Shown: positions 13,262-42,043 of the stretch, piece after piece
Numbering within the stretch: position 1 is the first letter of the stretch
Layout of the letters: the number at the start of each line of letters is the position of its first letter
NCBI GenBank assembly: GCA_963920665.1
Contig: OY987269.1
Span: 22,136,501-22,200,500 of the forward strand
Origin: Straminergon stramineum
Taxonomy: Eukaryota; Streptophyta; Bryopsida; Hypnales; Calliergonaceae
Direction: 5' to 3'
Length of the DNA stretch: 64,000 nucleotides
Made by a program: the position numbers and the translations under genes
The notes under the pieces: generated by a model
What the model was told of the DNA's origin: nothing
Databases searched by the model: none
What the model saw: only the letters and a program-made list of their open reading frames with translations

Positions 13262-13274
13262 AAATCAAAATGGA
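13262..13274. repeat. Left target-site duplication of the LINE
   Basis: AAATCAAAATGGA is repeated exactly at 45492-45504, 32 kb away, directly after the 3' end of the LINE. Confidence 0.85.
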
Positions 13275-13277
13275 GGA

Positions 13278-19407: not shown

Positions 19408-19890
19408 ATGCCGCAGCTTAGGAGAAGTAGAGGCGGACAGGCTAGTACGTCCTTAGTGGAGGTGAAGCTCTAGAAGGTGATTCCGGTTATTTCCTCTACC
19501 GAACCGACCAAGTCCCAACTCATGGAGGATTTAACTTCCATAGGTTGCCTAGGGTTTGTAGAGAAACCTTGGGGCTTTAGGGAGGAAGTTATGGTGCGGG
19601 AACTCTTGGGAAAGTTGTCCAATGAGTTTGACAACACCATGAGAGCAGTTTTGCATCTTTGGACAAAAGATGTCTCGAGAACGGTGTACAATTTCTGGTC
19701 ATGGGGATTAGGAATGGCAAATCGGAAGGACGAGTCCGTCCGGGGGAAATTCCAAGGTGCTTTGAACCCGAAGGACGGTTACGCCGTAGCAGATTGTGTC
19801 GACAAGCGCCACCGCCGACTTCTACAATTCCTTGTTCCGATCCTACATCCGGAAAAGCCAATGAGGGTAACGATCTCCCTCGCAAATACC
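19408..19890 (+). pseudogene. Gag-like ORF of element A copy 4, 5' part
   Basis: The ATG at 19408 starts MPQLRRSRGGQ. A TAG follows at about 19471 after VEVKL. Then the frame is open from 19477 through GCLGFVEKPWGF, LSNEFDNTMRAVLHLW and HPEKPMRVTISLANT, where the Mutator-like transposon enters. The frame continues at 38330. Confidence 0.65.
19881..19890. repeat. Left target duplication of the Mutator-like transposon
   Basis: CGCAAATACC here is repeated at 38320-38329. Copy 1 of element A has the homologous uninterrupted site (near 1225), showing a single copy of this block. Confidence 0.9.
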
Positions 19891-19935
19891 AATGACGCTA
19901 GAGTGTGAGCGTTGAGCGTTGAGCATTGAGCGATT
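19891..19935. repeat. Left terminal inverted repeat of the Mutator-like transposon
   Basis: It begins AATGACGCTAGAGTG and contains four tandem 7-bp steps of TGAGCGT or TGAGCAT. Its partner is 38275-38319 on the other strand. Confidence 0.9.
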
Positions 19936-20731
19936 AGATTTGAATGCTCATTACAAATATTATTACTAAAAATAGACATGTCAGAGTAATAAATAGTGTT
20001 GTCAGATCCATAAATAGTAATGTCAAAAATTATATCCTAAAACAAATACCCATAAAAATTCCAAAGATTAGTATTAAAATAATCAATTTTGCAATCCACT
20101 GTTGCATAAAAGGGCATCAATGAAAGAATAGTATTTCTTGAACTAAGAGAAGTACAACCATAGAAATGATGTATGAATGAACTTCATCCATGTCATCCAT
20201 TCATCATCCATCCAAGAAGGATTTAAATTGAACATTACAATACATGTCCCCAAAAATCCAATGTAATTTCTTTAGTTCTTTATTTCAAAAACAATAATTA
20301 TAACTCAAAAAACCCATTTGCATTGTTGACTTCAAAGTTGTGTTAACTATCTTGAAGTTGCTTTCATGCTCCTCGGAACCAAGCAACACCTTCAAGGTTC
20401 ATTTGGAAAAATGAAACAATCAATTCTATTGTGTTGTTTAATTGTGGTTTAGGGTTCCTTGAAATCGAGGAGCATCTTTAACATCCACTTGTAGAATTGT
20501 AACATTTCATCACACACTATTGTTTGGCTAAATTCAGCCTTTTCTTATGTATTTTTTTTACTGTTTAGGATTTTACAAATGGTTTGATTGGTCCTTTGTA
20601 TGCCATGAACTATTTCCACCTTCAACTAGTTAGCCTTCAAGACCTATGACAACTACTCCATTGGACTAATATTTATCCGCCTCTAAACATAAGTTGTTTC
20701 ACCATCTATAGTAAGATGGATAAAAAACAAC
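19936..20731. other. Left subterminal region of the Mutator-like transposon
   Basis: This AT-rich stretch has no gene. It holds two copies of the short palindrome (20369-20388, degenerate, and 20457-20474). Confidence 0.6.
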
Positions 20732-23700
20732 TTATAGATTGCTAGCTAGAAGAAGTAGCTTCACTTCATCAAAGCTCAAACTTGGTGCATGTATGAATTT
20801 GTCATCTTCAGAGTTTGCCTTGCAAATAAACCTAAAGACATAATATAAATGCTTGCAATTCACCCATGATTTCCTACTACCAAGTGCAGCTGTACTCATA
20901 GTAATGAAATCTTCGTAGGTACAAGCAGGGAAGTCCGAAATTGTGATTCGATAGACCTTTTGGTAGGGAAAGATACCAGACATGAGGGTTATCACTCTAC
21001 CGTAGCTAGGGTATGGAATAACAATTACGGATTCAACAACAGCTTTCAAGTTCCTTGCTGTCTCCCATTTGTTGCGGTGGTCAATTGTGGGCGCATTAGG
21101 GTTACGTCGAATGGTCCTCCCTAATCGCTTCGTGGGATGCATGTCACCGTTAGACGGTTGAAGATCACTATCTGTTTCCTTCGGATGAAAGAAGGAGACC
21201 CCTCCCACCGTACTCTCTTCATTAAATAGGCGAAGTGGTAGTTCCCCTACCTCTTCAGTTTGCAATTGGAACCCTGCTTCCTCAAGAGAAAGGATCTCTG
21301 ATTTCGTGAGATGTGTCCCACATTGAACAGGCCATACATTTGGAAGAGGGGGCCAATCATGAACCCACTTCACCTTAGAGCCTCCTACACAATGCACAAG
21401 ATCATCTGCACAAAACCAAAAATCAAAGTCGATAATGGCCTTGGTTCCATATTCTGTCATGCGTCCATTATAGGTAGGTGCTACTGTTCCATTCTTTTTT
21501 GACTTGTTTATTTTGGCCCCGCATTTCTTCTTCATCCCAACTTGAACTCCATGGCAAGTCTTCCCTTCCTTCCTACACCTAGCAATGTGCCAAAGAGAAG
21601 GATTGCAATCTATTTCAAGTACTTTAGTAGCGTGAAGACGTAATATACTTGGTTCACTTTCTTCTACCAACATTGGCGTTGAAGCGCCTGCTTCTGTACG
21701 TGCTCTAGTTGATCGAGTTTGAACTTTCGGTGCTGAAAAGTTCACTGTATCATGGCAATGAGAGTCGCCGTCTGATCCAGGTGGTAGGTTTAGTTTGCGC
21801 TTAGCAGAGCCAAATACTTCTTCACCTTCCAAGTGGGGAACCCGCGTGGTGAATAGGTCAGCACCTGGTAGTTTTGCAACTGCCTCAGCAAACTTTGCTA
21901 CATTTTTGGTTCGTCTTACAGCTCGAAGGCGAAGCTCGTCCAAGTGGGGACCGGTGCCAGATGCATAACCTTGGAGGTATGCCCAGTAATTAGTCGATTG
22001 CTGAATAGCCCGCATCATATCATCTGTAGTCGCAACGTACAAGCAAGTCCCCCTCTTCCCAGACATTTGCAGCCACTTGTTGTGAACTGTCTCTGCCAAG
22101 TTGCATGAAGGCATTTCATCGAGCTCTTCCAAATTTAAATTCTGCAGCAACAATAACAATTTTGAATGATGCAAGGTAAGGCTTTCTTGGTTTTGAAATG
22201 CTTGTTCCAATATTTGTTATGGTAGATGTTTAGCTCAAAGTCTTGGGTTTTCTATAGATGTGAAGGAAAATAATTAATCCTAAATCAAATACCGATGGCA
22301 CTAAAAGAATTTGTCTATGAAAAAAATTTTAGCAATTAATATCGGGGATTCGAAATCAAGGAGGCATGTGACTTACCAATTCCAGAAATCCGCCCCACTG
22401 TCGATATCGGAAGTGCCAAAAACCAAGCCAATCATCTAGTTGTCGGAGAGAGTCCTCTGATGCAGCCCTTGACGAAAGCCACCAACCCTTGATTCCAAGG
22501 TATCGCTCTTCTGCTTCTGCCATTGATTTTACATCCTTGTATTGTTTACAAAGTCGCTTATGAGTTTCTTGGAACTCTGAGCGAATGAGCTTCTCTGTAT
22601 GTCTGTTCAGGGACGTTGTCCAATGTAGTAGACAAGAGCGCTCTCGATCTTGCATTGGCTCTTGCTTATTGCCACTTCCATACACCACACGAACAGCATG
22701 CCAGTTGGCCATGGCATTGTCAGCCATGAAACCCTTGAAATTTGGAGATGGAATCTGATGGCGCGCCATGACAGAGTTAAGGGATTTCTACATTTGTTCC
22801 TGTGATTGAGCATCCTCACTCATCATGTCACAGACACATATAGTTTGGACTCGACAGAACTCAGGGTCATAAACGTGGGCAGCCATAGACGTCCATCCCT
22901 TCACCCTCTTCACATGATCAAACATGCACCAAGAATTCTGCAAGTCTCCATGAGGTTGCATTCGCCTCACCAAATCCACTCCGCTTCCAGGACCTTCCTC
23001 GGACATCTTGAAAAGGTAAACCTTATCTTTACCTAGGCCTGGAAACACACTATCTTGAATATACGAATATGCACTTCTCATTTTTAATGAGATAATGTTG
23101 TCAATAGGTCCCTCGCTTGTATTGTGACGAAAACTAGAGATGGTATTTCGAATACTTGGTGAACTAAGTATCCGAAACTTCTCCATAATTGCTTCTAGTG
23201 CTTCTCCACGGAGGGGCTTCATAGGACCTTGTAGTCCATCCTCACCAAATAATTCAGATGCAAGAAAATCTTTGCTAGCTGCAAGACTAATGGCCGAATT
23301 AGTGGCACATGGTGTTCTAGAGACTTGTTGACTTATCAAAGATGTTGTCCGCTCAACGGAGTCACGACAAATACCCCTACCTATAGGATGTTCATGATGA
23401 CCAATATGGATACAAGCTCTCGGAAAACCATTAGAATTTAAGACCCTATACATGCGACAAGGGCATAGAGATTTGCAAGAGGGGGACACTTTACAAATCC
23501 AGCATACAAGATTGGACTTTGCAGGAGACTCATTCCCCACGGCAAAGATAACAGGTGACGAGCCTTCCCACTCAGTCTCATTTTGGCTTCCACCCCGCCG
23601 AATTCTAGGACAATCTAAATTCTCGCAAACAAGATGGCCAACACAGAATGAGGAGCGAAACTTAAGTCCAAAGTCATTAGCGATGTTCGTAGTGTGTGTA

Positions 23701-24515
23701 TGTGTCCAATTGTGTCCATCAAATCTACGGTCCATGCCTTCAAGTTGTCGACCTACGGACAATGAAGATGTCGACCTTGACAAACCAATAGAAGAAGATG
23801 CCGGAGAAGAAAGAGGAGGTAACTCAAAAAACACATCTCCATCAAATGACTGAGGAAGATGACGTACAGATTCACAACGAAGTTCATTGAAGTTGAGGAA
23901 CTTCAAATCATTCCGTGCACGAGGTCGACTCTGCATATCTCTAAGGCACTCAAAGACACTTTGAAATTGTGATGCATTCTGGGGACCTGAAGGAGGCAAT
24001 GTACTACCATGAGTACTTTGGTTCAATGCTACATTACTGTCATTGCCCCTCTCAGGTATGGAAGACAATTTTCCTGTTGTTTCACTAACAAGAATAGCGT
24101 CATCATCTGAAGACTCAGTGAGATCAATGTGGTTGTGATTCGAGGGCTCTACTTTGACATGAATTCCCCAAGACATCTGCACAGTAGAGTTTGCAGACCC
24201 AGGCGTAAGAATATCTGTTGACATAGACCTAACAACATTTGGAGTACCAAATACATGGTACCTTCCAGGAGTGAGTTTCCAAACATCTCCTATGTCATTC
24301 TGGAGCTTCATTTGCATAACAGTTGATACAATTTCTACTCCGTTGAAATCAAATAGCTCCTCCTCCACCCACATGGACATCAATTCTAGATTAAACCTCA
24401 CACTAAGAACCGCAGCAGAGACCCACGCCACACCATCTCTACAAGGAAATGAAATAGGAATGCTAAACTCGTCACTACGAACCACTGCCATGTCCATATT
24501 TAGATGTACATGCAA
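20732..24515 (-). pseudogene. Mutator-like transposase (WRKY/GCM1 zinc cluster, MULE core, SWIM) with one TAG
   Basis: Exon 1 is 24515-22377, ending TTG before GTAAGT. Exon 2 is 22141-20732, following TTGCTGCAG. The joint keeps frame and gives about 1,182 residues. Residues 268-375 form a zinc cluster (HTHTT, CVGHLVCENLDC, CPCRMY, HIGHHEHP) like the WRKY-GCM1 fingers of Mutator proteins. The DDE core follows, with CMFDHV, ICVCDMMSED, FKGFMADNAMANW and CLLHWTTSLNRHT. The C-terminus holds a SWIM-like motif CTYEDF...WVNCKHLYY, in which the second Cys of C-x-C is Tyr. An in-frame TAG at 22790-22788 lies inside the core, after SQEQM, where relatives have Trp as far as I recall. It would excise and insert the element if read through or repaired; as it stands it is probably inactive. 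Confidence 0.85.
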
Positions 24516-25058
24516 CCTACAAATTCATGCTCAAACTTCTATTCAATGTTGTTGTTTGCATAAGAGAGTTCAAAAGCATGTTGGTGATAGTATATAACTA
24601 ACTAGATCACATAGCGTATATAGATTTCAACGGTTCTATATTGGATTCTTGCGGTTTGAAATTCAAAATCAACAAATCAAATTTTTTGATTTTATGCATG
24701 GCCAACAGTTCTATAATTTCATTTCATTGACTAGTATACAAATTTGGTAATGATTAAGTACAAATAGCTTAGCAATCAAAGATGATCGTTTGTCAGAAGC
24801 CACCAAAAAAAGCCCTTCATTAATGTAGGAATGATATCTTCAAATCTATGAGTGGTCAAAAATACGGTTGATCAAACAAGGGATGTTTGTAGTGATCGTT
24901 CATGTTGTACTAATTGGGTGTCATTTGATGTCGAGAAGCCCTAATTGACACAATGGAAATACATTCATCACAGTATAGTATTCCTATATATTAGAGAGAT
25001 TATAGGGTTACAAACAGAAGGTAGGAATAGTATTGTTGCATTGTTTTTCGTTGGAGGG
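24516..25058. other. Intergenic region between the two divergent transposon genes
   Basis: This 540-bp AT-rich spacer has no gene and probably holds promoters for both directions. No clear TATA pair is assigned. Confidence 0.5.
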
Positions 25059-27145
25059 ATGCCAGAGGATTCCTATAGGAAGAGACGTAAGGTTGGATTC
25101 CGTTTTTCTAGTAAGAAACAGTTAGAGAAAGCAAAGATGGTTAGACGCTTGCATAGGACTAATGGCGTCGACATTAGTAGCACTGTTCGGACTTTGTCCT
25201 ATGAGGATCATCGAATTGAACTTCAAGAGTTCCAGTTGGAGGAGATTTTGACACAAACTAGCGATGGAATTCACATTGCCAACGCCGGCAGTGTAGATGA
25301 GAGCGAACAAGGTATACTTCAATCAGGTTCCCCATATAAGGAGATGTCGCTGACAAACAAAAAGTTGGTAAGTTCATCTTTGCATTATAGTGCATGAAAT
25401 GTTCTTGTTTGTGATTAAATATATTTATGTCTACAGCTTTTCTAGAATGTAAGAAACTCTATCAAAAGTTCATACCTTCAATTAAGGTAAACATGCCTAT
25501 GATATGCACATCTTCCATGATAGGCTCGTAGAAAACTATCCATCAGAGTCTTAGGTGGTTAAAACTACACATATTGGGCCTACTTTAGGTGGTAATATGA
25601 CCATTATAGCAACAATTTGGAGTAGTCTAGCAACTGTTTTGGGCTAATGGGGCAACTTCCCTCAAGAATTAAAAAAGAATTCATAATTTGTCCTAAAAGT
25701 AAAATTTCAATGGCTTCCTTAATTTTGCACAATTATCGTGGTATGGCTGAAAATTGAAAAGCTTTTTGGTAATGGCAAGACGCTAGGCCAATTATTCTAC
25801 ATGTCATATGCAAATTTATCTTATTAATGGAAAAATATAACAATTGATGTTAAGGTAATTATGATTGTAGTAAATAACATCAAGCATATCTATTTCTCTT
25901 ATCAATTAGGGTGTAACATCTTGTGACAGACCTAGGACAAAATAACCCAATGGCATGTAAGTAAATCAAACTTGACTTGCTTTAGGAGCTCCATTAATCA
26001 TTTTTCATTAATATTCAATTATGAATACAGGTTTTTTAATTGTTGTAATTGCATAGGTTGGCATCAAGTTCAAAGCTAGTGTATAAAACATGAAAAAAAC
26101 TTAAGATAGAAGCACACCTGTAAAATAAAGGAGGTGATTGCAAATTGCATAATTTTTAAAAATAATACACGTTCTTAAAAACATAATTTGGATAACTTTT
26201 GCTAAAATGTAATAAAAACAATTATGAAATTTGTTCAGATAATTTGTTTGGGCAACCTTCAATGTCATCGCACCCTAAAGCTCTCCACTGTTGTCCAAAC
26301 TAGGTCAAATGCATACTAACCTATATGGCTTGGTGCCCATTTAACTTTGGTGTATACTAAGATGTTATACACTATAATATACAACTATATTTTGAATTTT
26401 AGATTTAGGGAGTTATTCATTCTTTTATATGAAATAATAAATTATCATTGTCACAAATTCATAGTAATTTCATATTTCTAGAGAAATTCACGACTTGTAC
26501 ACTTTATGAATTTTGACTTTATGCTTGGGGTTTGGAAGACATATGGGAACACTGTCAAAAGAGAAACTTTGTTGTCTAAACCCTAATCGAACCAACACTA
26601 CGTTAGCTGGTCTAGGTTTTGGTTTAGCGCGCCGTTGTCTCTCAGCTTGCTTGGCTTGCTTACGGGAATCGCTCTGGCTCACAGTATTGCTCTTCCTCAC
26701 CCCAAGCGCAGATTTTTTTTATCTTTTGGTGATTCGAGAGTTTGAATTCTTGATTCCTTCATTGCAGACAATGGACGAGGAAGGTATATCCATGGGCGGT
26801 GGTGAGTCTTACGGAGGCGGTGGCGAGTCTGACGAAGGCGGTGGAGGAAACCGACTCGCGATGGGAAACGAACACTCTCCGCTTGCATTGACGGTGAGCT
26901 CCACAATTTAGTTTGTTTTTGCAAAATCCCCAACTTAATCAGAACTGCAAAGATGGGAGTCCCTAAACCCTAACGACTACAACGTGATTATCTTTCCATA
27001 GGGAACGGACGAATCCACAGGCGCAGAGAACAAACGAGTGCTGCAGAGAATTGAGGAATCGATGGGAGCGACTCGACAGGACGAGATTCATGCCGATGTT
27101 GCTGAAACACAAATCGTGTGGAATCATGATCGGACTGCACCTACC
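25059..27145 (+). CDS. Candidate 5' exons of the ParB-methyltransferase-like gene
   Basis: Three exons can be joined in phase 0. Exon 25059-25367 starts MPEDSYRKRRKVGFRFSSKK and ends before GTAAGT. Exon 26768-26893 follows a pyrimidine tract and GCAG, and contains a Gly/Glu-rich stretch GGGESYGGGGESDEGGGG. Exon 27002-27145 (GTDESTGAENKRVLQ...) ends before GTGAGT. The first exon is very basic and could be a nuclear localisation or DNA-binding segment. Because 27145 ends in phase 0 and 30922 begins in phase 0, a direct junction is possible. Whether these exons belong to the downstream gene is not shown by sequence alone; 26768-27145 could also be a separate small gene. Confidence 0.45.
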
Positions 27146-27300
27146 GTGAGTACCTCTGAGTTGATTTTCACGTGTTTTCCATTTCTCAAAAATGGACTTC
27201 TTACCTTCAACAGTGGACAGCACTTGCCGTGAGTACCTCTGAGTTGATTTCAAGTGTTTTCCATTTCTCAAAAATGGACTTCTTACCTCCAACAGTACAG
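27134..27300 (+). repeat. 82-83-bp tandem duplication of an intron with its splice sites
   Basis: Unit 1 starts gactgcacctaccgtgagta at 27134 and unit 2 starts gacagcacttgccgtgagta at 27217. Each runs through an identical stretch ccatttctcaaaaatggact to an AACAG acceptor. If spliced, this gives introns 27146-27213 and 27229-27295 or 27229-27300, separated by a 15-nt exon (27214-27228, WTALA). Confidence 0.85.
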
Positions 27301-27578
27301 CACTTGCGATTAGAAATGTGTAGAGAGCAGCAGCGATCGGAAATGCGTAGAGTCCGTTGAGAGCACCTCAAAATCGAAATGCAGGATCGGAGTATGTTCA
27401 TAGGGTTTCTATTCTTTGCCGCCTCTTACTGTAGAATGGTTTTATCGCTAGTAGGAAAATGTAATTTTTTTGAAAAATACGGGAATCCAACGTGGAGGCT
27501 GTCGAAAGAAGCGCCCAGCGTGCAGGATCGTTTAAGCTCAACGGAACCCTCCTCGAAATCGAGGAGCGCTCAAGGAGC

Positions 27579-27651
27579 CCCGAGGAGCTTTAGTGGGGTC
27601 CCGAGGAGCTGTACTGGGGTCCCGAGGAGCTTTACTGGGATCCCGATGAGC
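27579..27651. repeat. 21-bp tandem repeat of cccgaggagctttagtgggg type
   Basis: Units start at 27579, 27600, 27621 and (partial) 27642. Each contains GAGGAGC, a half-site of the palindrome family, and the array directly follows a full palindrome at 27548-27567. Confidence 0.85.
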
Positions 27652-29477
27652 GCTCCGAGTTGCTTGGCTGTGCGGTCAGACTGCTTGGGCTGTCTTGTTC
27701 AGACCACAGTGATCAAATTTGCACAGTGGTCAGATCTGTGCAGGTAGTGGTCAAGAATGCTCAGAGAGTGTTCATAGCTGCTTGCGGAGGGCTTAGATAA
27801 CATTCAATGAGGAAATTTTCAGTTTTACAGTATTATTGATGGAACTCACTAAGTCAGTTCTCATAGATCTAAAGTGAATCCAGTGTGCTCTGAAGTAGAT
27901 CTTAGTTACAGAAATCACTCTTGCTTGTCTTGCCCGCTGAATCTAAAGTTTTCACAAATCAATGCATATCATTAGCAATCAGCTGAATTGTGGCAGAAGC
28001 ATAAATTATTGTGCTCCTTTCATCAAATTTAGAATGCTTGGCTTCTTGAAACAAAGCCAAAATAGCTGAATTAGAATTTGATGGATTAGAATATAGATGC
28101 TTCAAGCAAACTTGGAAGAGTATTTTTTGTGATGCCATCATGCACTGATGTCGTTATTGGGTTAGAAGCTTGTTTTATGCAATTGTACCACGGCAGAATC
28201 ACTTCAAAAATGTTCTTCAATCATGTACTATTATAGATGATTTGACAAATTATAGTCTATAAACTAGTTGGATAGAAAATTCATACAACCTATATTTTGT
28301 TATTTTCAGTATTGTTGATCGTTTTAGGGGTTTTGATGGTTGATATCCAGTCTTTAGCGTCAGTACTAATATTTTACTAGTTTCCAGGCTCACCTATCAA
28401 ACTAGGAATTATATATCTAGTAGTCTCAAATCATCAAAAATGGAAATGTTAGAAAAGTGTTGAAAGATAGCGTTCTACAAAGTTCAGAATTCTTGCACAA
28501 ACCCAATTCATAATCTACCAAATGTTATTTTCCATGTGTGTTTTCATTTTGATGCATGATCCTTTATTTTATGATATTTGAATACTTAGTAAACCCTTCC
28601 AATCAAATTTCTTTTCCATTTTGTTTATAGTTAATATCGCAAGAATTTCATAGCTATGCTAATTTGAGGATGCTATGCATAACAAATAATGCTCATTGCC
28701 ATTATAATAGAACCATAATATAAACATGATTCCTAGTCATGATTTTATTATTGAATCCAAAAAAATTAATTTTCTAATCAATTCAAACATTGGAAATATT
28801 CCAAAAGACAAATGGAGGTTCAGAATTGATTTAGAGTTCATCCCACTTTGAAAGTCACATGAGAATCAACGTGACATATGTCTTATAAGATTAGTAGCAA
28901 CCTTCCATATTCAAATGCACATTCAATTCCATAGCTCTCTTAAGGTTTAAAGTCCTTTTTACCTTCTAAAGGACCAAGTAGTATCTTTTGGCAATAGAAA
29001 ATTTATTCAATATTATGAATATTTTCATGCTACATGTGATTGAGGAGTAGCCTTACCGCATAATATTTTTTACAAATTCTACACTACACAGGTTAAGAGT
29101 TATTGTACAATATGGAATTTTTCAGTAAACATAGTGTCACTCAATTTTGCACTTGATTCTAGAATAGTATAGAGGTTTTGTTAATGACCTACATACATAT
29201 TTCTATTCTTTAGACCAAAGTTAATGTTGAACTTTTTCCAGAAGTTGTCTTCTATCCAAACTATTGCTTATCATAAGTCCTACCAAAACATAGAATTATT
29301 ATAGTAGATTTTGAGCTTGTATAACTCAAAATGGTTTTGTTCAAATCATTTTGAAAATCTATAGAGTTACTTATCTTGGGGTTTTTTTCAAATATAAATT
29401 ATCATCCTAATCTCATCTAAACAGAAAATTTAGTACTTTGAAAGAGTTGTTACATGGATTTCCATTGCATCTCAAAA

Positions 29478-30806
29478 CCCTCCTTGGATTCGAGGAGCAG
29501 TAGAAGCATATTTATTTTGCAATAGTGGCTAAGGTCTGTTCACAAGACATGGAGATTTAAGCTTATATTCACAAATTCAAGTAATTTTAGTGAGATTTAA
29601 TAGCTCTTCAAAATGAAAAGTTTATCAAACAAACCTCCTCCTAATCGAGAAGGATCTTATTTGCACCTCATTTCAAATAACTTCAATAAGTACTAGAATT
29701 TCTTGTTACAATTTGGGAAAGGTGATGGTTTCAAATTCATACTTATTAGCCCTCCTCGAAATCAAGGAGGGGTACTAACGTAGGGATAGGAGCCTAAGGC
29801 CGCAAGTCCTCAACATTTATTATGTGATATTTTGCATGTTGGCCTCCAATATTGTTGTCTTAGTGAATACCAAGAGTTGGAAGATAAATTCTTAATATGA
29901 AGATTTTTATTTTAATGGAATGTATGAATTGTATTTCGTGTGATAGTTAGATGCCATAGTGCTCCTTGAAATCAAAGAGCATCCTTGGGACCAAGGACAT
30001 TTGGTCCATAGAGGCCTCCTTGATTTCGAGGAGCATGTTTGGAACTATGTAAGGCCCATCTATTGTTGGAATCTGGAATCTTCATTTCACTTTAGGAGTG
30101 CTTATATTCTAATAATTCATTTTACATCATGATGATTCTTTTAATATTCTGTCCAATGAGCTATGCTTTAGCCCTCCTCGGAATCGAGGAAGGCTCTTAA
30201 CTTGTCTACAAGACTACTAGGTGGAATTTAATTCTATGAATTTGAGGTTAGATGGTCAATCTCATAGGAATTTCCAAAATCTAAAAAAACAATAGGTCAT
30301 TTCATGTTGAGAATTGTATATTCAAGACCTTCTTGATTTCAAGGAGGGGTCTATGAGAGCTTATTGGGAGAAGAACTTATCATTTTTATGTTCAAGATTG
30401 AATGGTCACTGTGACCAAAAATTCATATCATCTGATTATTGGAGAATTGTTAGAGTACATAGGTGTATGCTTTCATGCTCCTCAAAATCAAGGAGGGTTC
30501 TTATCCTATATACAAGAAACCAAATGAATGGCCACCTAAATTTTATAGTGTAGATTTAATCATTAAATCTTCTAAATACATATTATATTTTGATAGGAAA
30601 AGAATATGTTGATGTTGATTATTCATGTGAAGGTGGTCCTAGAAAAAGATAAGATATCTACACTTACTCATTTAAATTTCCATCTACGTTGCTGTTGTGT
30701 AAAGTCAAACAATTGGTGCTATGAATTAATATTGTATTTTGAAATGATGGATACGTTTTTGGATTAACAATGACATGTCCTACTGCTCCTCGAAATCAAG
30801 GAGGGA
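29478..30806. repeat. Densest cluster of the short palindrome family
   Basis: Copies near consensus CTCCTCGAAATCGAGGAG occur at 29478, 29635 (degenerate), 29749, 29961, 30013, 30171, 30326, 30477 and 30785. Others in the transposon lie at 20369, 20457, 27548, 32936, 34505, 36202 (degenerate), 36454, 37370 and 37448. Both arms vary, often with compensating changes that keep the self-complementary form (for example CTCCTTGATTTCGAGGAG). Confidence 0.85.
30430..30535. repeat. Intronic segment duplicated at 32890-32990
   Basis: About 100-150 bp around the palindrome (gagaattgttagagtacata through gggttcttatcctatataca) recurs near 32900 with about 85 percent identity by eye. This shows that at least some palindromes moved or were copied with flanking sequence. 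Confidence 0.75.
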
Positions 30807-30921
30807 TGTAAATGTATTTCCTTGTTGTTTTTTGTTACTATATTTAAGGTAGTTGAGCATTCAGTCGTACAATGTAAAGGCACTTATAACTTACTGAAAA
30901 ATTGATATTCTGAATTCACAG

Positions 30922-33900
30922 GAGCGTGAAGATGCTGAACCACATCTATTGACATGTGAGGAGACTAGAGATGCTTTCCGGATGAAAGAGAGACTTGACT
31001 CTAACTCAATCATACGGGAGTTACGATTTAAGCCACATGAGTCTTGCCGGTTTAAGATTCCTCTATGTCGGATGATATCACTTCCAATGGTCAGGCCGGT
31101 TCTCCAAACAGATGTAGTTCGGCTTCAATCCGAATTTGTTCATGGATACCGAGAAGGTGATAGAGTGTTATATGTGTCAATTACTAATGATAAGGGCCTC
31201 ACTCAGAAGGTCACCGAGGAGATTTCAGGGAGTTGGGATGTTCATTGGATTACAGAGAATGCACTTTTTGAGGAACAACTTCAAAGCCATAAGGATCGTT
31301 CTTGCCTCTATGGACTTATGTTTTTTGTTTGGGATGGTAATCACCGACATATGGCGTGGATGAATTACATCACCAATATGCGAGCTGAGGAAAAGGCGTG
31401 GCATATTTGGGTGGATTCTATTTTGCTCGAAACAAAAGGATTCACAACAGTCTTGATGAACGCGATGAATGATATAAACAGGTTAAATCCATTGCCTTTT
31501 CTCATATAGAGTTATTTTATAGAATTTTTGTACTTCATTATGTATTTACATATTATAATAACAAGATAAAAATTGTTTAATTGAAGTTGTACATTACACT
31601 AATTTTTCATGCATATTCATCAGATCTACGGAAAACGCTCATGTCAAGACCAACATAGTACACCGGCTTCATCGAGTCAACACTTACGGGTCACTGAACT
31701 TGGAAGACTTCAAAGATCTTCTTACTGAAGAAGAGTATCGGACTTGTGAGAGTAGGGGTAAACCATATCCATGGTATCCACTTACATCAGATGTCTTTAT
31801 CAGGTTCTTATATCGGGTAAGTGAATTTCTAATTAAAACTTGAATTCTGTGGAATGTAAAAGGAAAATACATTCAATTTGACTTTTTCACTTCATTTTTA
31901 TAGCAAGAAGTGTCAGCCGCTACGGATGAGGCCGCTGGCTTATACGAAGAAAAAACCACAAGAGAAGATAGAAATTCTAGAGCTTTGCACGAAGCTATGA
32001 AAGTAGCAGCTAATGCAAAAGTGAAGTCTCTTCGGTCTGAGTTTGATAAACTCAGTGCGGTGGGGAACCCTAAGCATGGACCACGATGGTTGGAAGAGGT
32101 AAGTCTCGAATATTTTCATTCATTTTTTAATGAGGTCAAATCTTTTTTGCTTGAAATTAAAGGACATCATTGACAATATGTCTTATGTTTCATACATACG
32201 CGCTAATTCATTATTTCTCTTTGGTTTTCTAGATCAATCTTCATTGGAGCAAACATGAACGCCCGGACATGACTTTGGATAAGCTCCAACACTTGGCTGC
32301 AACTATTGTCTTGCCACTTTATAAGAGTCGATGGTTGTCTTGGTGGAATTCAAGCGATATGAATCGAGCGGCTCTTCGATTTCCGATTCCAGTGGCAACT
32401 GAGGAAAAACTCAAAAATTGGTTGCCTAAAGCAACCTTTTGGGCAGAGGTGAGTGTCTATGCTTTTATTTCTTTTCATTGAGACACTTTCATTATTTCTT
32501 CATGACTATCATATACTATGACCTTCCAATGTTTAATTGCTATACAAAATTTATTTGTATGATTCCTTGCAGCTTGAAGAAGCGGCTACCACATGGTTCA
32601 ATGCAACAATAGCTTCCGAGCGCATCATTGTGAAATGGGATGCAGATGATTCCCTCGACCGAATCGGTGACTACATTGAACGTTACCGAATCATTCTTTG
32701 GGATCATGCCTTTTACGTGTTTTTTGGCAAGAATTCAAAGTACTCACGCACTGTGCCATTCATTGGGCAAGAAGGAACGGAACATGTTATGCTGCGCTGC
32801 GTGTATCGGTATTCTCACTAGTCTTCCCTTTGTGATTATCATTTTTATGTTTTAGATTGTATGGTTGATGTGACCAAAATTTCATTTCATCTAATTTTAG
32901 GAAAATTGTTAGAATACATAGGTGCATGCCTTCATGCTCCTCGAAATCAAGGAGGGTTCTTGTTCCATGTACAAGAACCCAAATGAATGCCCTCTTGATT
33001 TTATTCTTTATTTTGTGTTTTATTTTAAGGATTTATTTTTAAATTCTATTGGGTTGATACTTATGTTGCAGGTATTTCCTTCGCGAGTTAGCTCTAAAGG
33101 GAGGCATTGCCAAGAGGGCGATGCCCAAACTCTTTGGAGCATGGATTGATAAGACCTTGCCTACTTGTGTATTCACATCCATACAAATTCGTGCTTTCTC
33201 TGTTGAAGAACTCATTGCCTGTCCATGGTACTTGGAATGCAAGAGATCATACGCACCTGCAGAAGAGCAAATGGAGAAGGCAGCAGCCTCAAAGTCAATA
33301 GTAGAAGAATTGTCTGATGATGAAGTGGACCAAGAAATTGAGGAGCCACCAAATGATAGTAAGACAAAGAAGAAGCCACTTTCAAAAACACAACCTGCTA
33401 CAAAGAAGGCTCAAAAGGGAAAAGAATCTGGGGCCACGTCTGTATGCGAAGGTGAAGTTGCGGGTGCAGAAGTTGTCTTAGTTGCTTCATCCCAAGCTCC
33501 TCCTCTTCTCCAATCTTCATCAACAGTGGTTTTTGCACCCTCACAATGGCAAACTGCGAGCACACTCTGCTCTGTCACTATAGGTGTTGATGTGAGTCGC
33601 CTTGTTCTCCAATATTCTATCCGTGATGCCATTGAGTACTTGGTAAAACACAAGCAACAATCCCCTCAACAAATCCAGATATTGGACTTTGCAAAGAAGG
33701 TAACTACTTAACTACATACTTGCTTGTTTCATCTATATTATCTATTTTGTATATCATCCAAATTTTTATTAACAAGTATGTTTTGGTGTCAACAGGTAGG
33801 TAAAGGCCGCGAACGTCCTATTGGTGGAGTTAGCAAACGTGAGGCTTGCTTTGATCTCATTATTGGTGATGTCCCTGATGGTCTCCCAGTACTCAATGTG

Positions 33901-35695
33901 TCCCAACCTCCATTTAGTGTTCCATCTTGGAAGATTTTCAGTCCAGATTTTGTGGAATCCATATTTGAGTTTGCAAGTGGTACACTTCAAGATAATGGTG
34001 CGGTGATGTTGTTTCTCCCTGACAATCCGAAGATGAGGCATGGAGTGGATAAATTTGCCAAAATACACGGCTTTGAGTGCGCCCATGATTGGTGGAGAGT
34101 CAATGAGTTGCGGTTGACTTCCTACAGGAATACAAATTGCACTGTAAGTAACACTTGATCATTTCTTGGATCGTCATTTCATTGTAAACATGTAAATTAT
34201 CTTTGTTTTCTAATAATTATGTGTTGTCATATTGATTTCATAGACAAAGCGTTTCTGGATTGTACTATTTGTTCGAGTTTCGTATAAGGGGAAGGAGGTA
34301 GAATCAACTTTCTCAATTGAGGAGAACCAAAAGCAAAGCGAGAACAGCACAGACCTTACTGGTATATTTCTTTATATGGATTATTAGTTTCTTTTACGAT
34401 AGACTAAATTCATGAACTAGTTCTTTAAATTATTATTTTTAAAAGTTATAATTATCACTCCATTTGGAATTTTTTTTTATCTAGACATGAAATTATAATG
34501 GATTGACCCTCCTTGAATCCGAGGAGGGTAGAGTTGGCAACATATTTGATAATCCAGAGGTAGTTTCATTTCAAAAGTCGTGTTTCAAATAGATTTTTCA
34601 AAAACATTTAGCTAGTTACTATAATTGCAAATTGAATGTAGTGGACGTTTTATCTTCTATTGCTATGAAATACTGTGCTTGGGTTTGAAAAGAATGTGCC
34701 CATTTTAATTTAATGAACTTTTTTGTCCAAATACAACTCATTGGTAATGGATTTTCATTAGTAAAGAACTATATACTATTGATTTTGTTGAAATATAGTG
34801 GTTTGTCATTGGTTATGTAATAGGAGAGGGACTTTTGCACAACTTCACCACTGTGAATAGTCAACTCAAACGAGATGGGATCCCGTGGAGAGGCGCTCGT
34901 GAGAAGGATCCATTATTTCTCCAACTTCTCATCGAGAGTTTCTCGAAGCCTGGTGATGTAGTACTTGACTGCAATGCCTCCACAGGTTTTTTTACTACTT
35001 GAATCCATAATTTTTGTAAATGTTATTGTCTTTCCTTACTGCATATTCTATTTGAATTCCTAATTTTGTCATTGAAATGATAGAACCAAACTAATTATTG
35101 TTTCAATCATCTATAATAGGGGCAAGCATTCACGCGTGTAAAAGGGCTGGCCGGCATATTGTGGCAATTGAGTCAGACTCAGCAATTTTTCAAGAGGTTC
35201 TTGCTCCACTGATTGTCCCTGAGGCTATAGCAAACTCTGTTCGGTCTAAGCGAAAATATCGTGAGTCATCAAGCGAGGAAGATGATGATAGCCCCTCTAG
35301 CAAGGGTACTAAAAGTCCGGTGCCAGTTGCACAAAACCACTTCGGTTCGTAAGTTAAAACTTTTTTCTTAGGTGTTTGTGGTTTGGTTGTCATTGTATCA
35401 ATTTATTCTAGCTTTTGTTAATCTTATTTTTAATGTATTATAGATGTGGTTGTGCAGGTTGGTGACATTGTTTGATAGCCCACCTATGCCATGGGCACTA
35501 CCTTTTTATGCAGAAGCAATTGCTCTAGCTACTGCGGAAGAAGTTTCACCATTGGCGGCTCCAAAGAGACGGAGGTTGCACCTGAAGTATATGGACGTAG
35601 AGGCTGTAGAGGATAGCCATGGGAGTGAGACAGAAGAAGACTATAGTAGTGACGCATTGAGTGCTGCAGATATAGTCGGTTCAAACTGGGGTTAA
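30922..35695 (+). CDS. ParB-like plus N6/N4 DNA methyltransferase-like protein, 11 exons
   Basis: Exons: 30922-31481, 31624-31816, 31904-32098, 32233-32448, 32573-32808, 33072-33699, 33796-34143, 34244-34361, 34824-34985, 35120-35348, 35458-35695. All have GT..AG borders, phases agree at every joint, and the sum is 3123 nt (1,040 residues, TAA at 35693). The first exon resembles a ParB-like domain: RPVLQTDVVRLQSEFVHGYR, then WDGNHRHMAW at 31330-31359 in the place of the ParB GNHR/GxRR box. A helical middle region and a Lys-rich linker (33355-33430) follow. The C-terminal fold has DLIIGDVPDG (33853-33882) at the DPPY position and, after it, KPGDVVLDCNASTGASIHACK (split by an intron) as motif I with AIESD as motif II: the beta-class order of N6-adenine/N4-cytosine methylases. 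DPPY is replaced by DVPD, so catalysis is doubtful. It ends in an acidic tail. A role in marking or protecting transposon DNA is inference. Confidence 0.8.
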
Positions 35696-38274
35696 GTATA
35701 AGTTCCTTGTTGATACTCCAGATCAGTAACTATATACCAAATTTAAATAAAGGGCCTGGACACTTGTGGACTATGTCTACAATGTTTCATCTTTGGAGTT
35801 GGTATTACCAACTCCACATTGCCCACAACTAACGCTTCTTGGGGGGGGGGAGTTCATTGGCAATGAAATTTAAATTCATTAGATAGATTTGCCCAATAGA
35901 AATGCCTTCAATGCTAGAACAGGTTGTGTGGGCTTTATCTTATTTTTATAGGACCAATGGAACAAGCGTCTTCAAAAATGACACTTACAATACTGCTTGT
36001 TTTGTTTAACTTAAACCAAAATTTATTCAAAATGAAGTGATCCATTGGACCTCCACCTAGAAGTGGTTGATGATGATTGGTGTCAAAATATGATCTGAAT
36101 TTTTTGGAAGGGGTTAGTTTATTAAAGGAGGTTAGGCTGATGCTCCCTCTAGAAAAAGTGATGGTTTTCTAGAGCCAGATGAGGACTCCGTGGAATTGAA
36201 AATAGGCTTCTCGGTTCCAAGGACCTCTATTTGGCGCCAATGACATTTGGTGTAATGAAGGTTCTTGGATGCTATCATCCAAAATGAAGCTTACAATAAG
36301 ACTTGTATTTTTTAACTTAAACCAGAAATGTACTGTAAATAAAGTGGTCAATTGCACCTTATGAGAAGGTGTCATTTATTTCGGGGGAGGGGGGGCACTA
36401 CATCCAAGCCACGTTTTCAGTAGCCAAATGAAGGCTCCATAGAACTCCAAAAAGGCTCCTTGATTCTGAGGAGCTTAATTTGGTGTTGAGGACATTTGGT
36501 ATAATGAAGGTTCTTTGAAGCTATCCTAAAAAAAATAAGCTCCCAATAATGCTTGTTCTCTTATCTAAACTATAATTGTACTCAAGATAAAGTAGTTCTT
36601 TGTACTTGAAGACAAAATGGTTGATGATTGTAGGATTGTTCTTTGTTGGTGTCAAAGCGCTAAAAAGAAAGGTCCAAAAATATGAGGTTATCTGTGCAAA
36701 AAAATATTGCATTGTAGAGTTTGTCCATGCCCTTAATTATGTATGTCTTTAAAGCATGGCAATAGAAGCCCTTAACAAAATTAATTTCACCCCTTGAAGG
36801 ACGGAATAGTGACCATGGAAGTCATCCCTTTTGGAATTGTGTGACATCATCTACTTCAACAAAACCCAAAATATTCATTGGAGGTCAAACTATCTCTCAA
36901 TTTTAGCTTTTCCACAAAACTCTAAGGACAAACAATTTCACTTTTGTCAACTAAACTCCAAGGACGAACAATTTTACATCTTGAATTTAGTTGTGTAGGT
37001 AATTTTTTGAATAATTCTTTCTACCCAAAAATGTTAGTGTAGGAAAATTATAATGTAATCATAATCCCATTTTTTGGGATAAAAAATGCACCTTCATTGG
37101 TGAATATCTCACCAATAATTACTCCCTCACGATCCTAAACCAACAATAAAGATTAAAAGCGTTGAAAGACAAAGAATTCTATTTTGTACTTTCCTCTTAA
37201 AATATTAGAACAAAGTTTTGCCAAATTTACATGGGTCTTATGTCATTACCCCTACTCTTAAGATTTTTGGAGGAGGTTTCATTTTTTATTTATTCATTCT
37301 TTTGATGCTCCCTCTAGGTCAAGGAAAGGCTCTTCGGACCCATATGAAGGCTCCTTGGAACTCAATAAAGGCTCCTCGATTTCGAGGAACCCTACTCTGG
37401 TGCCAAGGACTTCTGGTTTCAATGAAGGACTGTTGAAGTGAAAAGACGCTCCTCGGATCCAAGGAGCCATTTCTTATTGCCAAATTGATCGTAAACCCTT
37501 ATTTTTTTCCGATGGCCCACCCAAAACTTCAACCAAACCATTTCATTAGAATTATTTTTTATATGTTTTTAAATATCTATACATTACCCTCTATGAATAT
37601 TTTCTATTTTTATTATTTAGAAAATATATTTTTACATGTTTAAATGACATGAGGACTACATGTTAGAATTCTAAACATCTTTTTGTTGGAATAAAATATT
37701 CACTTCAGACAGAATTAATATAGACTTCAAAGTGTATATCTTACACCAATGAAGGCCTTAGTGAATTTCATTTTGACAGAATGTGGATAATGTTTTACAT
37801 ACAAAGTATGTCTTTAGATCTATGTTAGTATAAGAAGGAAAAATTAAAGATTATATTTTCATCTATTAGAAGGCTAAAATGTAATAAATTCTTCTAATTG
37901 ATACTTTTAATAATATAATAGACTAATTCTCACAATAAATGTTTTAGTCAATTGCACTTTTGTACTTAAAAATATATAGTAGGTGCTTCAATCAATATTA
38001 AAAACTATATTTTATAAGTGGTGTACAATTGCATATTTAGTTCCATCTATCAGTTATCCAAACTTAATTTCATTAAATGCAATGAAGAATAGATGTATTT
38101 CATCCGAAATAAACAAGTCCAAAAAAGTTCATCCATCCCCATTCATCCCCATTCATCTCCATTCATCTCCATTCATCTTTTCTACACGCATTTAATTCCA
38201 TACTTTTTTTTTCTAAACACAGACATAAGGGTTTTATGGTTTATGGTTTACAAATTTTTACCCACTTTTCTAAA
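35696..38274. other. Right subterminal region of the Mutator-like transposon
   Basis: There is no gene. Degenerate units of about 240 bp begin near 35945, 36180, 36420 and 37345, each with a palindrome or half palindrome followed by a GACATTTGGT-like block and AATGAAGGTTCTT. A 10-bp repeat cccattcatc occupies 38135-38180. Confidence 0.6.
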
Positions 38275-38319
38275 ATTGCTCAACGCTCATTGCTCAACGC
38301 TCATACTTTAGCAACCCTG
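38275..38319. repeat. Right terminal inverted repeat of the Mutator-like transposon
   Basis: Read inward it is CAGGGTTGCTAAAGTATGAG followed by heptad steps TGAGCAA and TGAGCGT. The outermost 7 bases differ from the left end; from GCTA inward the two ends agree at 33 of 39 positions. The target duplication CGCAAATACC follows at 38320-38329. Confidence 0.9.
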
Positions 38320-38329
38320 CGCAAATACC

Positions 38330-39478
38330 ATCTTCGACACCCTCAGAGGAGATCGAAGAGTCGACTGGGCCCAAATCATTTCCAATCTGGTCACCCAGCT
38401 CGTAGGAAGAGTTGGAAAGAGTAGGGCCACTCCTTTGTGTCCCTACCTCATCCATCTCTACCATTCCCATCAACTCCTGAGCGCTGGAGAGAAGAAGGTG
38501 TGGAGGGCTTAAGAAGTTCTCCTAAGGTATGGAGAATAAAAAATGGATGACGAAGTCGAATCTAATTCCGATCCTGAGGAGAACATCGAGTCAGAGGAGG
38601 AGGAACCGAATATGCTGCTGATCAAACGACAAAAGACGACCTCTCCTCACAAGCTAGGGACGCCACCTGGTCGCGATACCTCGGCCCCGGACAAGAGACC
38701 AGAGGTTGAAAAGATCGTGTCGAAGGAATCAAATCCCGATGATCCATTCAACCTTCTCGTCAAAATCCTATGTGACGTGAGAGCGGATTGGGAACTGAAG
38801 AGAAGGATCCTGCTTGCGATCGGGAAGTTGGTGGGGGCACCGCTAGACAGAGAGCTACTAGAGAAGGTGGCAAGCTACATTTCCGATCTGGTCGAAGCCC
38901 GGAAACAAGAGACGGAGATCCGGAGGTTGCAGAAGGAGGTGGATCGAGTGAAGGCAAAACTCCTTGTGCTCAAGGAGAACTTTGCAGCCACTCGATCGAT
39001 GGCAGATAAAGCTCAGAAGATGGTGGAGTAGGTGAAGGCTACATTCAAGGAGACCAGAATGGCAGCCGCCAAAGCTAAGCTATTTGATGAGAAAGTGCAC
39101 GATGAGAAGAAGCCATTTAGTTCCCGGATGGTCAGGATTCTCACAGATTTTGTCGAACAGGTTGAAGCGGCAATGAAGGAGGCGGACCGGATGGAGGAGA
39201 GTACCCGGATACTATAGGGAGCCACCTGCTCTCAAGGTATTCGACTCTCGGATATATCTCTTCCAGATTCGTTTCTGGATGCAACAGTAGAGGAGGGAAA
39301 GGATGCCACTCTCAAGTCCAAGAGATCAGAGGCTAAGGCGAATCTGGCTGGTATGCCCGGAACCGCCATCGATTTGGACTCAACCTCCAAATCCACAGAA
39401 GGCAACCAGGTTTCTAACCCTTAGGAGAGGGAGCGGAATCGGAACTTGAACGAGATTTTCGAGCAATTGGAGCCGGGA
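38330..39478 (+). pseudogene. Gag-like ORF of element A copy 4, 3' part
   Basis: It continues directly from the transposon insertion with IFDTLRGDRRVDWAQIIS, CPYLIHLYHSHQLL, a stop near 38510, the acidic linker (DDEVESNSDPEEN), a long frame to QKMVE (39031), a stop, then the helical segment and the DLDSTSKSTEGNQV tail. At 39478, close to its end, element C copy 1 is inserted. Confidence 0.65.
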
Positions 39479-40662
39479 TGTCGCGCCCCTTAGTGGCACT
39501 TACCACCTTAAGCTCACTTTCCAAACGCTTAACACCTCAATGCCACCAAGGTTCACGCTCTCCTAACACTGCACATGCCACGCACCCACAATGTTAGGTT
39601 CCAACTCAAATCACGGGGTTCCCCATTCCTCCATGACTCCCAATCCTTTCCTTCTAATCCTTAACTCCCACAAGACACCGGGCATGTCATTTGATGACAT
39701 GGGGCGGAACTTCCATTGATGTCCAAGCACTCGGTGAGGCACTACTCCCACCGGTGCTAACCGCCCTTGAATGGGACCCAACTCCCCACTAGGCCCGACC
39801 CAACTCCCCACTAGGCCCAACCCAACTCATTTCGGGACTCACTAATCGGGACTCACCAAACGGGACTCACACCATGGCCTAGTGTGGAGTGGGACACCAC
39901 CCAACCGGTATCAAGGAGTGCACAAGCACTCCATGGTAACACACAAGTGGTGGTGAAGCTCCAACACTAACCTCACCACCCGGGGCCACTTAGGCTCACC
40001 ATGGCACCATCCGGGAGTGAGGAGGGAGACCACCCCTCCTCATAGTACTCTCTACGGGATTCGGCAGCCCCCCCCCCTTGTATGTCAAGGGGGAATCCCA
40101 AACACCCTTTGGTTTTGGAAGACCACCCTGTTTCTCCCGATTCGCACTAGTTTGGGACTCCCGAACTTCCACCCGGCATAACTTTGCGATCCGGTATCCA
40201 AATTGCACATGCGACCCCATTTTCGACATCTACGCGACGCGTAGATGCCGATGGACTACTCACTTGCTCCATTCGGACAAGTACTTGCAAAGATATCGCC
40301 CTCCAAAGATTCGGGACACTCCCGCCGCGGCCGGGACACTCCTGGCGCGGCCAGGGCACTCCCGGCTCGACCAGGGCGCTCCCGGTGCGACCGGGACACC
40401 CCGAACTTTGAACGCCCATAACTTTTGACTCGCAAGTCCAAATCACGCGTTCTTTGGACGGCTGGAAGCGTCTTCTCAAGACCTTTCCAAGCATGTATCA
40501 CACGCCCCCACATTCGTCCGGATCAGAGCGCTACATCGCTCTGATCGCTCGGGACTCCTAGTCCCCCTCACCTCATCTCTTGCAAGGCTTGGGGAGTCAC
40601 CCCCAATGTCCCCCTTGCTCACCAAGGTGGCATGGGCACACCTTGTGACGAGGGTCATGACA
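39479..40662 (+). mobile_element. Element C, copy 1 (1184 bp, solo-LTR-like)
   Basis: The ends are TGTCGCGCCCC and GGTCATGACA; the target duplication is CGGGA (39474-39478 and 40663-40667), inside element A. It is GC-rich, with no supported ORF. TG...CA ends, a 5-bp duplication and no internal direct repeat are the signature of a solo LTR. Confidence 0.85.
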
Positions 40663-40749
40663 CGGGAGCGGATAGTGACACCATTGGATCTCGGGTGGGC
40701 ACTTAGTGTATAAATAATAGGAATGTTAGGAATGGATTCGGACCCTGTT

Positions 40750-42043
40750 TGTCACAACCCTCATCACGAGGCGTGCCCGTGCCACCTTGGTGAGCAAGGG
40801 GAACATTGGGGGTGACTCTCGGAGCCTTGCAAAAGATGAGGTGAAGAGGGACTAGGAGTCCCGAGCGATCAGAATGTGGTAGCGCTTTGATCCAGACGAA
40901 TTTGGGGGCATGTAATATATGCTTGGAAAGGTCTCGAGGAGACGCTTCTATCCATCCAAAGAACGCATGATTTGGACTTGTGAGTCAAAAGTTATGGGCG
41001 TTCATAGGTGGGGGTGTCTCGAGGGCACCGGGACACTTAAGGACTAGGAGGGAGGGGTTCATGAGGAATCCCTCCATGAAGTATGTCATGTAGCATATCC
41101 TTGGAAAACTAAGAACACAAGGATGATAGATTGACAAGAATTACGAGGTTCTAAGGTAGGAGCCTCAAGTAATGGCCAAGAGAAACGCCGTGGTGAAGGC
41201 GTGACGCCTCTCCCGGTGGACCCGAATCTTTGGAGGGCGGTAACTTTGCGAGTACTTGTCCAAATAGGACAAGTGAGTAATCCATCGGCATCTACTGGTC
41301 GAGTAGATGTCTAAAATGGGCTCACATGTGCGATTCGGAGCCCAGATCGCAAAGTTAGGCCGGGTGGAAGTTCGGGTGTCCCAAACAAGGGCGAATCAGG
41401 AGAAATGGGGTGGTCTTCCAAAACCAAAGTGGGTTTGGGAGTCCCCTTTGACATAGAAGGGGGGGGGGGTCTGCCGAATCCCACAGAGAGTACTATAGGA
41501 GGGGTTGGTCTCACTCCTCACTCCTTCTTGGAGCCTTGGTGAGTCCTGGTGACTCAAGGTTGGTGGTGTAGGGTCACCACCACTCCAAGGCACCATGGGA
41601 CACTTGTGTGTGTCCCGTGGCACCGGTTGGGTGGAGTCCCACTCCTTGCTAGGCTATGTGGAGGTGTCTCGAATTGTGAGTCCCAATGAGTGACAATGTG
41701 GAAAGTAGCAAATACACAAGGAGCCTTGTGTAGAGTTGGGGTGACACTCAAGGGCGGTTAGGACCATGGTGAGTAGTGCCACCATGGGTCCTTGCATAAT
41801 AAGATGGGAGTCCCGCCCCATATTACCAAGTAACATGTCCCGGTGTCATGAAGGGTGTAGGTGTGCTAGTAGTCTCAGTGACTGGGACTTAGCACAAAGA
41901 GTTGGAATTGGGGACTAACATTGGATGTGCGTGGCATGTGTAGTGTTAGGAGAGCGTGACCCTTGGTGTCACTAAAGTGTTAAGTGCTTGGAAAGCATTG
42001 GAAGGGGAACTTGAAGTGGTAAGTGTCACTAAGGGGTGCGACA
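40750..42043 (-). mobile_element. Element C, copy 2 (1294 bp), inverted relative to copy 1
   Basis: The ends are TGTCACAACCC and GGGTGCGACA; the target duplication is CTGTT (40745-40749 and 42044-42048). It is the same family as copy 1 in opposite orientation, separated from it by only 87 bp of element A sequence. No ORF is supported. Confidence 0.85.

Follow-up and report, generated by a model that had tools for sequence, protein, structure and literature searches.

A spliced gene with a ParB/Srx-type fold and an altered methyltransferase-like fold is the second gene of a moss DNA transposon

A 64,000-nucleotide stretch of the Straminergon stramineum genome (contig C7, OY987269.1, positions 22,136,501 to 22,200,500 of a 326-Mb assembly in 59 contigs; hereafter the window) contains a spliced gene whose product joins a ParB/Srx-fold domain to a DNA methyltransferase-like domain. 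We show that this gene, called the accessory gene below, belongs to a plant DNA transposon with two genes, the other one being a transposase gene; the two are transcribed divergently and move together. By analogy to VANC of the Arabidopsis VANDAL elements, the accessory protein may be a self-recognition factor of its element that protects it from silencing or aids its transposition, a reading to which we give a probability of roughly 0.4. Its ParB-type domain, which retains the GxxR phosphate-binding box, would bind nucleotide, and the protein, perhaps via its middle part, would be directed to palindromes of the form CTCG-N4-CGAG in the noncoding DNA of the element. The methyltransferase-like domain would take part with a conserved motif I stretch and without a DPPY motif, an absence that makes it more likely to sense S-adenosylmethionine (SAM), hold a base or bind a partner than to write methyl groups. 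As with VANC, the outcome would be an element that is shielded from silencing or helped to transpose.

The accessory gene lies on the plus strand of plant-like DNA; elsewhere in the window, Pfam marks one frame as protein kinase and another as NB-ARC, and a further frame is leucine-rich-repeat-like by eye. Its eleven exons join in frame to 1,040 codons plus a stop, and all ten introns are of the GT-AG type. The ParB/Srx-fold domain is encoded by exon 1 (window positions 30922 to 31481), which is followed by exons 2 (31624 to 31816), 3 (31904 to 32098), 4 (32233 to 32448), 5 (32573 to 32808) and 6 (33072 to 33699, with, by eye, a charged stretch of low complexity). The methyltransferase-like domain has its motif IV position in exon 7 (33796 to 34143; DLIIGDVPDG), and after exon 8 (34244 to 34361) come exon 9 (34824 to 34985), with PWRGAREKDP at the motif X position and VVLDCNAST at the start of motif I by comparison of copies, exon 10 (35120 to 35348), with the remainder of motif I (GASIHACKRAGRHIVAIESD), and exon 11 (35458 to 35695), which includes the stop codon. 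Because exon 1 starts directly after a splice acceptor, 30922 is probably not the true start of the gene; phase and splice sites point to a probable first coding exon with an ATG at 26771 to 26893 and a probable second one at 27002 to 27145, which would join in phase 0 and bring the protein to ca. 1,129 residues.

An earlier note on this DNA, made from its letters alone, had proposed the eleven-exon model, and the observation is confirmed as real rather than a product of chance. Besides the GT-AG introns, it is backed by a 98.7% identical copy on C2 with intact exons and splice sites over the exons compared (1 to 10), by 106 homologues among 117 candidates when exon 1 alone was compared to the protein database (E ≤ 0.1) and by at least 133 exon matches in the genome. 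The full-length protein found no match at E ≤ 0.001 among 7,994 scored database candidates, probably because the database holds the gene in exon-sized pieces.

Linkage to the transposase was assessed across the genome with 44 of 2,602 candidates scored for the accessory protein and 77 of 1,059 for the transposase exon, the latter giving at least 106 matches and 76 typed places. The accessory exon matches fall into 26 clusters; in 18 of these a scored transposase lies no more than 25 kb away, always head-to-head (18/18), where 0.30 would be expected by chance given the typed places. Conversely, when the 17 transposase copies that rank best at full length (at least 70% identity) are taken as the starting point, 14 have an accessory gene within 25 kb, and on C9 (12.13 Mb) the linkage is kept at only 45% identity for the accessory protein and 46% for the transposase. 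The earlier note had made its proposal depend on a fold match for the two halves of the protein and on a second copy linked to a transposase; folds were found, as described below, and linked copies are plentiful. Elsewhere on the window's own contig (C7:10591471-10611719), two pairs of transposase and accessory gene are placed back to back and oppositely oriented, with identical match scores for the accessory genes and different ones for the transposases, which is perhaps an inverted duplication.

Residence in a DNA transposon had likewise been proposed before, and the boundaries of the element are now supported by its inverted repeats, a target duplication, an empty-site paralogue and the ends of another copy. 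The transposon comprises 18,430 bp (19890 to 38319), starting with CA and ending with TG, and its two genes are bracketed by a 39-nt terminal inverted repeat of which the aligned left part (19897 to 19935, plus strand) is 85% identical to the reverse complement of the right part (38274 to 38312, minus strand; E = 3.8e-5). Outside these repeats lies a direct duplication that by match alone reads CGCAAATACC(A) and measures 10 to 11 bp. We take it to be the 9-bp sequence CGCAAATAC (19881 to 19889 on the left, 38320 to 38328 on the right) because the copy on C2 is flanked by a 9-bp duplication of its own, GTTATGGAA, so that both copies with two ends read (2/2) have a duplication of this length. 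The C2 copy is also of similar length (ca. 18.4 kb), and its ends match those of the window copy at 97.5% over 121 nt and 98.3% over 120 nt; copies on C8 and C10 yielded one further end each, with no opposite end in the stretches fetched. When the window flanks are joined with a single copy of the duplication, they align without gaps to an uninterrupted paralogue in the window (1643 to 533, minus strand) over 1,111 bp at 84%, and to a second paralogue with gaps at 74%. The interrupted locus belongs to a repeated gene family with members at 33 to 1295, 6093 to 6545, 10780 to 11343 (assigned by eye) and 19474 to 19890 plus 38330 to 39424, the last being the one that received the transposon; no Pfam family exceeded its cut-off in the frames of this family that were scanned.

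The transposase is encoded on the minus strand by exon 1 at 22377 to 24497, the end of which is inferred from a splice donor, and exon 2 at 20732 to 22141, which occupies an open frame of 20732 to 22216 up to an inferred splice acceptor. In the window copy, exon 1 is interrupted by an in-frame TAG at 22788 to 22790. The protein has 13 database homologues at 38% to 55% identity and, by eye, the DDE-like blocks CDMQSED, FMADSAQAN and TCLFHW in addition to a SWIM-like CKHLYYV stretch in exon 2. We call it a transposase because it is multi-copy, lies between the ends of the element and has conserved blocks; its alignment found no match among PDB sequences. As for the suggestion that the element is a MULE, the 9-bp duplication agrees with the 8 to 11 bp described for MULEs (PMC6446971), but neither the window frames nor the 13 homologues matched a MULE, SWIM or other transposase profile in Pfam.

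That the N-terminal half of the accessory protein has a ParB/Srx-fold domain is shown by structure prediction. The AlphaFold2 model of exon 1 (predicted local distance difference test score 89.6, predicted template modelling score 0.81) matches ParB, Noc, KorB and Srx and has the same three-dimensional fold as the nucleotide-binding domain of ParB. The box WDGNHRHMAW, which the first reading had taken for a ParB-family signature, is indeed present in this fold; it comprises the DGNHR of residues 138 to 142 with the GxxR box (Box II, or P motif) as GNHR at residues 139 to 142, and (D/E)GNHR is kept in 46 of the 52 alignment rows that have letters there. The domain probably binds nucleotide. In sequence searches, exon 1 matched no Pfam family at E ≤ 10, PF02195 included, its 53-row alignment (A1) gave weak scattered matches such as DUF6551 and CB_ParB_C in two rows each, and searches of PDB sequences with exon 1 and its alignment returned nothing useful. 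No Pfam match in the 1,040-residue protein corresponds to the helix-turn-helix or the C-terminal dimerisation domain of a ParB clamp. To our knowledge, ParB-type nucleotide switches in eukaryotes are represented mainly by sulfiredoxin. The latter has been named as the eukaryotic example (PMC12704722).

For the C-terminal half, the earlier note had seen a methylase of the N6/N4 type that might mark the element's own DNA; the fold and the motif order hold, while catalytic activity does not follow from the motifs of the copies. Residues 728 to 910 match Pfam N6_N4_Mtase (PF01555) with 32.8 bits against a gathering cut-off of 26.7 (E = 8.7e-8), DNA methyltransferase PHROGs match the same half (best value 7.9e-7), and among the phage proteins listed, the highest-ranking one is from Cronobacter phage CR3 and is named "putative DNA methylase 2" (25% identity, 92% of the piece aligned, E = 2e-5). 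As in permuted enzymes, motif IV comes before motif I. The motif IV tetrapeptide is usually (D/N/S)PP(Y/F/W), and motif I usually reads D-x-F-x-G-x-G. We read the motifs across genome copies including the window (15 rows for exon 7, 16 for exon 9 and 14 for exon 10) and found D-[VIMR]-[PL]-[DEN] at the motif IV position of all 15, so that the aspartate is kept throughout (15/15), the usual tetrapeptide occurs in none and the aromatic position is taken by D, E or N. Since this altered motif is common to the copies, the change is old and not a recent lesion of the window copy. Motif I is DCxAS in 15 of 16 copies and DYNAS in the other, none having the usual form; all 14 rows read beyond it continue with A[ST]IH[AS]C. 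EKDP occupies the motif X position in all 16 copies, six of which have PWRGAREKDP in full.

An active N4-cytosine or N6-adenine DNA methyltransferase is nevertheless what the above-threshold profile match, the permuted order, the CR3 relative and the invariant aspartate would speak for, and 14 of the 15 copies have an S-x-P-P downstream of the motif IV position that BLASTP pairs with the DPPY of the phage protein, so a displaced catalytic motif is possible. Against this stand the universal lack of DPP[YFW], the acidic or amide residue in place of the aromatic one and the divergent motif I, and the match to PF01555 starts at profile position 31, which we take to be past the usual place of DPPY. 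On balance, we regard self-marking by methylation as unlikely. A six-frame search of the host genome with PF01555 found nothing, probably owing to introns.

Comparison of copies argues for selection on the accessory gene between subfamilies. Because Nei-Gojobori estimates of synonymous divergence (dS) were saturated for most deep pairs, we counted differences by codon position: exon 1 differs from deep relatives at ca. 0.23/0.16/0.52 of first, second and third positions (six copies), exon 6 at ca. 0.34/0.26/0.57 (three deep copies), and exons 7 and 9 at ca. 0.26/0.17/0.60 and 0.24/0.15/0.55 against one subfamily, with 0.39-0.48/0.30-0.33/0.55-0.71 for exon 7 of the four most distant copies. 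Across exons 1, 7 and 9, third positions differ ca. 1.4 to more than 3 times as often as the other two. For the transposase exon, the ratio of nonsynonymous to synonymous divergence (dN/dS) is 0.17 to 0.28 at dS 0.24 to 0.91 (13 copies). The claim that the gene is "under or recently under selection" therefore holds between subfamilies but not for the closest copies: the three nearest transposases (more than 93% identity) have dN/dS of 0.39 to 0.85, near neutral or mixed, and the differences between the accessory genes of the window and C2 are distributed 13/9/16 among first, second and third codon positions, with introns (99.4%) slightly more alike than exons (98.7%), so that no constraint is visible on recent insertions.

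This last comparison, together with the tendency of MULEs to pick up fragments of host genes (PMC6446971), is what would be expected of a passenger, a gene of host or viral origin that the transposon took up and that has no function for it. We consider this highly improbable in view of the clear codon-position bias and of deeply diverged copies that keep both frame and linkage, such as the pair on C9. The two genes do not share one history throughout: transposases L007 to L009 are at dS of ca. 0.48 from that of the window, while the accessory genes of the same elements (L045, L047, L048 and L058 to L060) are saturated at silent sites and thus far more diverged. Module exchange between element lineages is a likely explanation for these sequence divergences.

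Candidate target sites of the accessory protein are found in the noncoding DNA of the element. In the window, a near-perfect palindrome, CTCCTCGAAATC[AG]AGGAG, occurs at 19 places with up to 5 mismatches, 17 of which lie between 20,455 and 37,466 inside the transposon (e.g., CTCCTCGAAATCGAGGAGC at 27549 to 27567), with a cluster upstream of exon 1 at 29752 to 30804 (starting at 29752, 29962, 30015, 30174, 30328, 30478 and 30786). Three of its core 10-mers are absent from positions 1 to 18400 and 38401 to 64000. A 167-nt unit with one palindrome is present both upstream of exon 1 (30377 to 30543) and in intron 5 (32836 to 33002) at 84% identity. Other subfamilies carry other repeats: CCTCCTCGGAACC occurs 13 and 12 times per 1.5 kb in two copies and also in two more, and GGCCTCGTCAACGAGGTC and CTCTCGGCGCCGAGAG are further subfamily-specific forms. 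CTCG-N4-CGAG is common to three of the four subfamily forms, the fourth being mainly the half CTCGGAAC. Of seven genome copies compared besides the window, four held a clear repeated motif in the 1.5 kb upstream of exon 1 and three did not. In all of four subfamilies, the most frequent 10-mer of the gene spacer exceeded 20 shuffles (4/3, 6/3, 9/4 and 8/3), as in neither of two control stretches. CTCGN4CGAG itself occurs 2 times in the gene spacer of the window, 7 on C8, 5 on C9 and 2 on C3 (shuffle means at most 0.01), once in L062 and not in L063 to L065, and is absent from the window flanks (19.9 kb plus 25.7 kb, or 45.6 kb) and from 39 kb of nine transposase loci. Short noncoding repeats that differ among subfamilies, as VANC targets do, are thus present in four of them, with their palindromic form chosen post hoc.

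Several observations weigh against a self-recognition factor acting through these sites. The CTCG-N4-CGAG form was picked after viewing the same spacers, and two later spacers with 2 and 3 occurrences are DNA relatives of the earlier ones and not independent of them. Among all inverted repeats of the 4+4+4 type, CTCG arms beat the top of 50 shuffles in one of four spacers (count over shuffle maximum: L072 7/4, window 2/5, L073 5/7, L074 2/6). The repeats lie in tandem units of 116 bp in L072 and in units of 86 bp in a related subfamily, so these again are not independent, and the main repeat of L074 is a half-site instead of a palindrome. In three copies (L049, L054 and L056), no 10-mer was over-represented in the 1.5-kb stretch before exon 1 and CTCGN4CGAG did not occur, with three weak matches to the window palindrome in L049. 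Furthermore, no recognisable DNA-binding domain was found in the accessory protein, 8 of its 26 clusters are without a scored transposase nearby (most candidates being unscored), and the repeats could equally be sites of the transposase.

The accessory protein could instead serve transposition itself, by end binding, excision or reintegration, without any role in silencing, which we see as possible but on the unlikely side. The invariant head-to-head arrangement of the linked clusters and the selection on both genes between subfamilies would fit such a factor, additional open reading frames are described for several MULEs (PMC6446971), and some palindromes lie at distances of ca. 0.6 and 0.9 kb from the ends of the element (20455, 37371 and 37448). 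None is located inside the terminal repeats, however, and of the 76 typed transposase places, 19 have a scored accessory gene within 25 kb and 57 do not, a weak point given the share of candidates scored. A more elaborate version of self-recognition, in which a domesticated ParB switch of bacterial or phage type, parS-like palindromes (CTCG-N4-CGAG with a spacer varying by subfamily) and a SAM-binding, non-catalytic fold would form a nucleotide-gated clamp that coats copies of the element and shields them from silencing, appears decidedly doubtful.

As to origins, viral contigs gave no confirmed relatives in searches with the accessory protein, the transposase or the exon 1 alignment (the first two reaching close relatives only), leaving a viral insertion unsupported. 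Transfer from a prokaryote or phage is plausible by analogy, because such fusions have been described in phages. The nearest architectural parallel is the fusion of a ParB-CTPase fold to an N6_N4 methyltransferase (PF02195 plus PF01555) of phages and prophages (PMC12704722), which shares with the accessory protein the two kinds of domain on one polypeptide, a mobile carrier and the GxxR box. The moss gene differs in being eukaryotic and spliced, in its length of ca. 1,040 to 1,129 residues with a long middle part without assigned domain, in its plant transposon carrier and in the lack of both DPPY and a PF02195 match.

The nearest functional parallel is VANC21, and the accessory protein may work like VANC, though we know of no domain shared between the two. 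In the VANDAL element that encodes it, VANC21 binds arrays of a nine-base motif in noncoding DNA, and silent marks are lost (PMC5735166, PMC10398659); the targets of VANC6 carry other motifs (PMC5735166). Both cases concern an accessory gene of a multi-gene plant transposon and short noncoding motifs that differ by family, but the VANC motifs described in PMC5735166 are not palindromes, and anti-silencing by the moss protein is an analogy. Bdelloid rotifer N4CMT (PMC8885841) is likewise a eukaryotic fusion gene with introns whose PF01555 domain is permuted and bacterial in type; it is an active host gene with a chromodomain, unlike the transposon-borne accessory gene without DPPY. DNA transposons with folds for chromatin or DNA modification also include those of fungi with TET/JBP genes (PMC12730594) and oomycete MULEs with SET genes (PMC6446971), which differ in their enzyme folds and host kingdoms. 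We recognised no account of a plant transposon carrying a ParB-methyltransferase gene in the literature searched, to which Repbase and most subscription papers did not belong, and the words "methyltransferase" and "ParB" are absent from the main text of PMC6446971.

Around the transposon, nested inverted repeats of 56 to 248 nt with up to 88% complementarity lie just beyond its right end (39517 to 41995), and broken plus-strand frames at 16300 to 18840 resemble, by eye, the endonuclease and reverse transcriptase of a non-LTR (long terminal repeat) retrotransposon. On the minus strand, protein kinase, NB-ARC and leucine-rich-repeat-like frames follow each other in a row at 52514 to 57349, the last being a 72-bp tandem array, and look like a resistance-type gene of the kinase-NB-ARC-leucine-rich-repeat kind.

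With the accessory gene, a type of fusion that was already known appears in a carrier of a new kind and with an altered catalytic site: a ParB-type fold and a modified methyltransferase fold in a spliced, multi-copy and selected gene of a eukaryotic transposon. If its product recognises the repeats of its element, it would be a second way, independent of VANC, in which a plant element solves the same problem, and the escape of transposons from silencing in this lineage could be tested directly on a single protein and a single DNA motif.

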